Source of the DNA: Deltaproteobacteria bacterium
GTDB lineage: Bacteria; CG2-30-53-67
Direction: 5' to 3'
Assembly (NCBI GenBank): GCA_013151235.1
Contig: JAADIO010000053.1
Coordinates: 1-19,058 of the forward strand
Length of the DNA: 19,058 bases
In this document: positions 6,631-19,058 of the stretch, one piece after another
Layout: each line of letters opens with the position of its first letter
Numbering within the stretch: the first letter of the stretch is position 1
Notes under the pieces: generated by a model
What the model saw: only the letters and a program-made list of their open reading frames with translations
Told to the model about the DNA's origin: nothing
Databases searched by the model: none
Position numbers and translations under genes: made by a program

Positions 6631-7521
6631 CTACTTAAGCACCGCCATTTTCTCCAGCGCAATCTTCGCTTCCTCACTCTTGGGATACTTATCCACAATC
6701 TTCTTCAGGATCTGACGGGCCGTATCATTGTCCTTCAACTCGTGGAAGGCGAGACCCTCTTTAAGCAAAGCCGCCGGAACCTTGTCCCCTTTGGGATATT
6801 GCCGGACCACTTCCTCGAATTCGATAATGGCTTCATCATATTTCTTCAGGCCGTAATAGCATTCCCCGATCCAGTATTGAGCATTGTCACTCAGATCATG
6901 CCCGGGATACGCCTTGATAAATTTGCGAAATCGTCGGATGGCCGGATCATATTTGTCCGCCTTCAGAAGATCCATTGCATCATTATAGGCTTTCCTCTCC
7001 GGAGTTACTTGCGGCAATGCCTGCACTGCACCCTTCCCGGCACCTGACGAGGGGGCCGTTGCCGGGGCAACCACCTTTTCCTTGAGGGAAGGCGCCGGCG
7101 AAGTCCCGCCGGGCATTGCCGCTTCCGGTACGCTCTCCGCCGGAGAAGAGAACTGCGTCTCCAACTCCCGGACCTTCCCCTCCAGGGACTGCAACCTTTC
7201 CTTCAAAGAGCGGATCTCTTCATAGACCCCTTCCTGATTGAAAATCGGGTTCTCCTTCGGGACGATCCCCGTTTGCAGATCATCCAACCGGCCGGAGAGG
7301 ATCTGGATCTGGCTGTTTATTTTATCCATCCGGGCCGCATGATCGGCAAGCCGGGTCCGAAGATCCCGGGAAGCTACCCCCCATTCCGCAGACTTCGACA
7401 GAACATCCTTCATCTGCCCTTCCAGGAAATTAATACGGGCATCCTGATCCATGGACGCACATGCCGTCAGCAGGAAACCCACAAGAACCGGCACAATCCA
7501 CTTGAATCCTTTACCAATCAT
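6631..7521 (-). CDS. cpoB: Cell division coordinator CpoB (YbgF), Tol-Pal associated
   Basis: This 296-residue periplasmic protein is the usual last member of Tol-Pal clusters and in E. coli links peptidoglycan synthesis with outer-membrane constriction. Residues 1-20 are a signal peptide ending in LLTAC, so Cys21 makes this a lipoprotein, unlike the soluble E. coli protein. Residues 25-110 contain heptad-rich coiled-coil stretches, matching the YbgF trimerisation region. A Pro/Ala-rich linker (about 115-175) follows. Residues 178-296 hold tandem TPR units with AYNDAMDLLKADKYDPAI, NAQYWIGECYYGLKKYDEAI and the family's YPKS spacing. It lies downstream of pal in the same direction but is separated from it by a 182-bp repeat element, so it may depend on read-through or its own promoter. 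Confidence 0.9.
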   Translation of the reverse strand: MIGKGFKWIVPVLVGFLLTACASMDQDARINFLEGQMKDVLSKSAEWGVASRDLRTRLADHAARMDKINSQIQILSGRLDDLQTGIVPKENPIFNQEGVYEEIRSLKERLQSLEGKVRELETQFSSPAESVPEAAMPGGTSPAPSLKEKVVAPATAPSSGAGKGAVQALPQVTPERKAYNDAMDLLKADKYDPAIRRFRKFIKAYPGHDLSDNAQYWIGECYYGLKKYDEAIIEFEEVVRQYPKGDKVPAALLKEGLAFHELKDNDTARQILKKIVDKYPKSEEAKIALEKMAVLK

Positions 7522-7587
7522 ATCAAACCCTTCTGATGATGAAACAACTCATTCCTGCCGGGAATACCCGAATAGGAGATTGGAAGA

Positions 7588-7769
7588 TTGATGAAGTCGT
7601 AAAAAGTCGTTTTCCGGATTCCGTTCATGGTTCGACAGGCTTCCGAGCATGGTGAGCTTGTCGAACCACACGAACGGAATATCAATCACTTACACCGTTC
7701 GCCCTGAGTACGCCTGTCCTGAGCCGGCCGAAGGGTCGAAGGGCTTCGTGACTTTTACGACACCATCAA
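7588..7769. repeat. MITE/REP-like element with inverted ends between pal and cpoB
   Basis: The left end TTGATGAAGTCGTAAAAAG (from 7588) is mirrored by the right end, which on the other strand reads TTGATGGTGTCGTAAAAG (from 7769 inward). Inside is a strong hairpin: GGTTCGACAGGCT (left arm near 7629-7641) against AGCTTGTCGAACC (7657-7669), with outer arms CCGTTC and GAACGG. A second smaller palindromic block, GCCCTGAG to GAAGGGC, spans about 7701-7745. The direct repeat AAGATT flanks the element at 7584-7589 and 7768-7773, consistent with a 6-bp target duplication. The first 52 bases (7588-7639) recur exactly at 18987-19038. No protein is encoded, so movement would need a transposase in trans. 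Confidence 0.85.
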
Positions 7770-7771
7770 GA

Positions 7772-8299
7772 TTATCGGGTCCGAAAGTGTACACGCCGAT
7801 TCCTCGACCAGCACGATTCAGTTTGCTCGGTGCAGACCGGCTTTTCTTCCCCGTAACTGATAGTGGAGATCCGATCTGCGGCAACCCCTAAGTTGATCAG
7901 GTAATTGTAGGCACTCTTCGCTCGCCGATCCCCCAGCGCGAGATTGTATTGACTGGAACCCCGATCGTCACAATGCCCTTCAATCACCACCGTGGTCCCG
8001 GCATGATTCTCCATCCAGGCGGCATTATCCGCGAGAGTGGATCGAGCTTCCGGAGAAAGGTCGAAGCGGTCGTAAGCAAAATAGACATCGGCCATCTCCT
8101 TGGGCTGAATCGGCTGGATCTCCTCCGTCAGGACATCGCTCTCCTGTATTCCCTTCGTCGCGGTTGCCGCTTGCTGCTCCGCGGACGGACTCGTGGTTTC
8201 GGCTTTCACAGCAGCCTTGTTCCGGGCACACCCGGACAGAGCCAGGAGAACCATCAACCCGAACATGATGATCCCTACCACCCAATTCTTTTTCCTCAT
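7772..8299 (-). CDS. pal: Peptidoglycan-associated lipoprotein Pal
   Basis: This 175-residue outer-membrane lipoprotein anchors the outer membrane to peptidoglycan and binds TolB. The lipobox is LSGC with Cys24. Residues 25-65 form a flexible linker rich in Ala, Thr and Glu. Residues 70-173 are an OmpA-like domain with VYFAYDRFDLSPEA (Asp80 at the diaminopimelate-binding position), VVIEGHCDDRGSSQYNLALG, DRRAKSAYNYL and the terminal RNRRVHF. The start at 8299 is preceded by AAAGGAG seven bases upstream. A longer open frame continues upstream into tolB but lacks a signal peptide at its start. The gene has its own promoter in the gap after tolB. The stop TAA (7772-7774) lies immediately beside the repeat element, within the duplicated AAGATT, so the insertion leaves the protein intact. 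Confidence 0.95.
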   Translation of the reverse strand: MRKKNWVVGIIMFGLMVLLALSGCARNKAAVKAETTSPSAEQQAATATKGIQESDVLTEEIQPIQPKEMADVYFAYDRFDLSPEARSTLADNAAWMENHAGTTVVIEGHCDDRGSSQYNLALGDRRAKSAYNYLINLGVAADRISTISYGEEKPVCTEQTESCWSRNRRVHFRTR

Positions 8300-18986: not shown

Positions 18987-19038
18987 TTGATGAAGTCGTA
19001 AAAAGTCGTTTTCCGGATTCCGTTCATGGTTCGACAGG
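18987..19038 (+). repeat. Second copy (left end) of the pal-cpoB repeat element
   Basis: Bases 18987-19038 are identical to 7588-7639, starting TTGATGAAGTCGTAAAAAG and ending GGTTCGACAGG. After that the two sequences diverge: this copy continues TTGATATGGTTGAC, while the pal copy continues CTTCCGAGC. It is in the same orientation as the first copy and lies at the edge of the helicase pseudogene. The window ends 20 bases later, so it cannot be told whether this is a shorter variant or a broken copy. Confidence 0.85.
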
Positions 19039-19058
19039 TTGATATGGTTGACAGTTGT

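Follow-up and report, generated by a model that had tools for sequence, protein, structure and literature searches.

The window analysed here, that is, the whole stretch of 19,058 nucleotides of contig JAADIO010000053.1 from a deltaproteobacterial genome (assembly GCA_013151235.1), carries a tol-pal cluster that comprises TolQ/ExbB, TolR/ExbD, a TonB-C protein, TolB, an OmpA-family protein (pal) and a TPR protein (cpoB). Between pal and cpoB lies a short element flanked on both sides by the hexamer AAGATT, and the spacer from the pal stop codon to cpoB, element included, now measures 250 nt (Table 1). The initial annotation had described this element as a 182-bp probable MITE with inverted ends, an internal hairpin and AAGATT directly repeated at its flanks. 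The element itself, its inverted ends, its hairpin and both copies of the hexamer are present in the sequence, whereas its size had to be revised to 178 bp (7590-7767) by comparison of copies. The terminal inverted repeats are 19-bp ends with one deletion in the right end, and no open reading frame was found inside the 178 bp at a threshold of 90 aa.

Table 1. Features of the pal-cpoB junction and of the right edge of the window (positions in the window)
Feature	Position	Strand	Basis or remark
cpoB/ybgF-like gene, TPR protein	6631..7521	-	Pfam TPR_6, YfiO
Target-site duplication, copy 1 (AAGATT)	7584..7589	.	Sequence; 6-bp duplications at copies elsewhere
MITE, 178 bp, non-coding	7590..7767	.	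Limits from comparison of copies
Left terminal inverted repeat GATGAAGTCGTAAAAAGTC	7590..7608	+	Among matches listed, 43 exact in the genome (20-mer = end plus flanking T)
Inner palindrome, arms 7618-7629/7669-7680 around arms 7628-7641/7655-7668	7618..7680	.	Sequence and folding
Second palindromic unit, inverted and disrupted (CTTCGAC...GCTCAGG...GCGAACGG type)	7695..7743	-	Sequence
Right terminal inverted repeat GATGGTGTCGTAAAA-GTC, A5 run short by one A	7750..7767	-	Sequence, read inward
Target-site duplication, copy 2 (AAGATT)	7768..7773	.	Sequence; 7772-7773 also supply the final two bases of the TAA stop of pal
pal, OmpA-family lipoprotein, stop codon 7772-7774	7772..8299	-	Pfam OmpA, 3.8e-22
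Second MITE copy, cut by contig end	18989..19058	+	About the first 50 bases match the first copy

In all seven other genomes of the phylum (G001-G007), pal is followed by the region of its downstream gene and the junction is free of any element, a comparison of relatives that the initial annotation had proposed. The pal-cpoB spacer is short in the sister species G001 and too diverged for a single hexamer to be matched base by base. Both strands of the element fold far better than shuffled sequences (z about -5; z = -5.2 as DNA and z = -5.3 as RNA), and an RNA fold of this predicted strength would also suit a conserved attenuator or regulatory RNA of the tol-pal operon whose likeness to a transposon is accidental. 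Such a regulatory element is exceedingly improbable, given that no Rfam match was obtained up to E = 1, that a terminator/promoter scan found no terminator-like or promoter-like site inside the element, that the element is missing from the junction in the seven relatives and that dozens of unrelated sites carry it.

Genomic copies and the 6-bp target duplication

The census of copies in the window's genome, which combines searches with retrieved stretches of the genome, confirmed the multicopy nature of the element: BLAST returned 49 matches, the best of them apart from the element itself being 94-97% identical, and the 20-mer end was found with at most three mismatches at 148 sites (0 for a reversed-pattern control), with about 75 end pairs in the genome. 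The two ends differ at positions 5-7, where the left reads AAG and the right GTG or GTC. There is a trend for the copies to avoid genes and they are mostly intergenic, 23 of 39 lying in no open reading frame of at least 100 aa after excision compared to 9% of random positions, a comparison made with simple open reading frames and to be read as a trend only. Many contigs of the assembly break within the MITE, including that of the window at its right edge (18989-19058).

The palindromic parts of the element are also repeated. The unit of the 7695-7743 type has 119 occurrences in the genome (up to three mismatches), and the TTCGACARGCTCA palindrome is present outside MITE ends as well, so that it constitutes a separate dispersed repeat. 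Additionally, the palindrome [CG]TTCGACARGCTCANNRCGAACGG was observed outside MITE ends in the same genome (L299:411-570 and L304:1501-1524), with one site holding three units.

Flanking hexamers are identical in 33 of the 46 complete copies of the window's genome; when the right flanks were shuffled among copies, 1.0 matched on average and never more than 6. The length of the flank match is exactly 6 bp in 33 of the copies, 7 bp in 7 and 8 bp in 0. The target consensus is A-W-N-N-W-T, with A at position 1 in 29/33 and T at position 6 in 30/33. The initial annotation had hesitated over the duplication at pal because the AA/TT part of the flanks overlaps the palindromic ends. Comparison of copies settles this point: the base adjoining GATG is T or A depending on the target and is found again as the outermost base of the hexamer on the right, so the AA/TT that extends the palindrome is part of the target duplication, which is therefore 6 bp long and unambiguous. 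On the other hand, its placement of the insertion exactly after the pal stop codon is not upheld, since the duplicated hexamer takes up the last two bases of the stop and the element begins 4 nt past it. The pal strand reads AATCTT at this hexamer, and as the AA completes the TAA, the staggered cut would have fallen within the stop codon and the stop would have been restored by the duplication.

Distribution of the ends and diversity of the interiors

A slightly wider end pattern gave 74 matches in the sister species G001, a few in G002 and G004, and none in the rest of the seven relatives. Among the GTDB matches listed, the end GAYGNNNTCGTAAAAAGTC is found mostly in Desulfobacterota, with additional occurrences in Nitrospirae, Aminicenantes and Neomarinimicrobiota. 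It is present in 123 of 395 genomes (~31%) sampled from the phylum of G107, a Desulfobacteraceae genome, where control matches were stray only; the top genome of this sample, G250 (5.3 Mb), harbors 589 exact ends, corresponding to ~295 elements. The hexamer duplication was also seen at copies in other genomes, exactly in 30 of 83 and with at most one mismatch in 43 of 83. Viral contigs were considered as carriers and rejected: none of 28 matches combined a matching end with an exact duplication, so they were treated as chance.

Element lengths in the other genomes peak at 133 and about 151 bp despite differing interiors (L150-L266). The ends remain constant and include a conserved TCGTAAAAAGTC, and what they enclose is often a REP-like palindrome and is unrelated in sequence from one type to another (CATTGCGAGGAG, ATTCCCGC...GCGGGAAT and TTCGACARGCTCA palindromes, the AAGGCGCG type, or plain A+T-rich DNA). 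REP-like palindromes in the interior, found outside the ends too, together with five Y1_Tnp matches in the window's genome (L061-L065), could suggest a REP/BIME-type element spread by the RAYT (Y1) transposases of this genome, with the palindromic interior as the recognised part. This origin is very improbable: the 6-bp target duplications found at most copies are not a product of Y1 chemistry, and it is the ends that are constant and the interiors that are unrelated. The RAYT transposases were also rejected as movers by inspection of their five loci, which showed no tested palindrome nearby and no element ends at their borders.

A candidate partner insertion sequence

The partner of the MITE was sought by screening the PF01609 genes of MITE-bearing genomes and inspecting their borders for MITE ends. 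The candidate is a 1.9-kb insertion sequence (IS) that is bounded by MITE-type ends and encodes a transposase of ~580-600 aa with DUF772 and DDE_Tnp_1_6 domains. In Desulfatitalea sp. BRH_c12 (L368) the IS measures 1891 bp, with ends GACGAACTCGTAAAAAGTA/GTC and flanks AAACTT/AAACTT. The sister species G001, of the same genus as the window's genome, holds an intact gene in an IS of 1937 bp with both ends (L375; protein 46% identical), the flanks of which do not match (AATCCT/TTCTTT). Further transposase homologues were found in G105 and G109, and at two loci (L377 and L378) both ends are present and the hexamers do not match. As a test of the prediction, 395 genomes were searched with four transposases, which added an IS of 1924 bp (L399, ATTGTT/ATTGTT) and one of 1916 bp (L400, AATCTT/AATCTT), each with both ends, and two loci with flanks that differ at one base (L407 and L408); at the remaining loci the hexamers beside the ends do not match or the contig stops short. 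Wherever the contig extends far enough, the ends accompany full-length transposases with 45% or more identity to that of L368, and in the same search the ends were absent at transposases of 33% identity or less. Invariant D151, D358 and E482 (L368 numbering) would fit a DDE triad.

In the window's genome, a decayed N-terminal part of the partner transposase persists at G000:C33:49738-49869 (L383), in a remnant stretch of 219 bp that is 79% identical to the IS of G001, with a stop codon inside and no ends. Unpaired ends followed for up to 3 kb led to no transposase and hence to no autonomous copy, most of them lying at contig ends or facing a degraded end. Of the other PF01609 transposases examined, only that of L364:799-2724 in G004 lies between the ends, and it was not retained as partner: it belongs to an IS1182-family IS that has terminal repeats of its own and sits within a MITE of the present family.

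The ends, the copy number, the 6-bp duplications, the target rule, the element-free junctions, the IS of other genomes that shares these ends and duplicates its target likewise, and the decayed remnant, as read from the sequences, all support the MITE of the initial annotation, which had itself suggested searching for further copies, duplicated hexamers and a transposase gene between the same inverted ends. With high confidence, the element can be considered a MITE, a non-autonomous transposon consisting of ends only, that most likely takes its transposase from the 1.9-kb IS; the initial annotation had left the mover unnamed, and an IS1182-related DDE transposase can now be put in its place. 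Encoded elsewhere and acting in trans, this transposase would bind the 19-bp ends and place the MITE by cut-and-paste in an A/T-edged hexamer with a 6-bp staggered cut, after which repair would copy the hexamer. The insertion at pal was probably near-neutral, and the autonomous copies would have been lost later, the source IS being intact in the sister species and apparently left only as a fragment in the window's genome.

Some genomes rich in ends did not yield the partner transposase: none was detected in G107 (234 ends) and G128 (331 ends) at E <= 1e-10, nor in G250 at E <= 1e-40. The transposase was found in 18 of the 395 genomes as against 123 with ends, and the association between the two is weak (ends in 10 of 18 transposase carriers vs 113 of 377 others). 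These high-copy genomes without the IS lend some weight to the possibility that the element, still a MITE, was amplified by another transposase of the same end specificity and that the IS1182-related IS is merely a relative. We consider this improbable, since no other gene bordered by the ends was found apart from the nested IS1182 of L364, since the window's genome holds a remnant of exactly the partner transposase, and since MITEs commonly lose their autonomous copy after amplification. For the high-copy genomes, either the autonomous copies have often been lost or left unassembled, or another transposase with the same ends has been at work. A more speculative and rather unlikely extension would be that one fixed 19-bp end pair serves as a general vehicle across phyla, new MITE lineages arising repeatedly by capture of unrelated palindromic DNA between the ends, dispersed REP-like repeats included, with an interior that is selected or needed and a spread that goes beyond the hosts holding the transposase. 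A testable question is also raised: why are the interiors so often palindromic yet unrelated in sequence?

Comparison with known elements

In the literature text searched, no mention of the end sequence or of the TTCGACARGCTCA palindrome was found, and the other text matches are analogies only. REP/BIME repeats mobilized by RAYT have REP-like palindromes in common with the present MITE, which differs from them by its terminal inverted repeats, its target duplications and the lack of any association found with the Y1 genes. The Correia elements of Neisseria are similar in size, with inverted ends, intergenic location and many copies; they duplicate TA and their ends differ from those described here. 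As for the partner IS, it presumably resembles the ISDol1 group (ISNCY) in size and duplication length.

The partner IS shares with the IS1182 family the DUF772 and DDE_Tnp_1_6 domains, the occurrence of short non-coding derivatives and, as best NCBIfam match, NF033551 (IS1182), although its scores of 149.6 and 159.3 bits lie below the cut-off of 270. It also differs in its 6-bp duplication, compared to the 4-bp duplication or palindromic target of the family: ISPse1 duplicates 4 bp (PMC3281130), and IS1272 of Staphylococcus, which belongs to the same wider family, replaces a palindrome without any target duplication (PMC5678879), whereas the present elements duplicate a hexamer. In Methanosarcina acetivorans, MITEs are paired with the IS1182-family element ISMac2, one of them with a 4-bp duplication (PMC3852290). 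Judged by its domains, model scores and flanks, the partner is thus a relative of IS1182 that the NCBIfam model of this family does not include and that makes a duplication of another length.

The MITE Chunjie of Geobacter uraniireducens is described in a review as 178-235 bp long and present in dozens of copies, which have conserved ends as well as direct repeats and lie mostly between genes, with one copy in an operon (PMC10969869); by this description, it is similar to the present MITE in size, copy number, ends, direct repeats, intergenic sites and operon insertion. The present family may be the same as Chunjie or as one of the ISfinder groups, for example ISDol1. A transposase and a target rule can now be assigned to a repeat that is very common in Desulfobacterota-type and other genomes and apparently has no name, and the copies of this repeat can therefore be annotated as MITEs instead of unexplained intergenic DNA. 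Since the element behaves as a MITE in every respect that could be tested and its partner falls outside the IS1182 model, the class to which it belongs is a known one, of which the present family is probably an undescribed, or so far unlinked, member.
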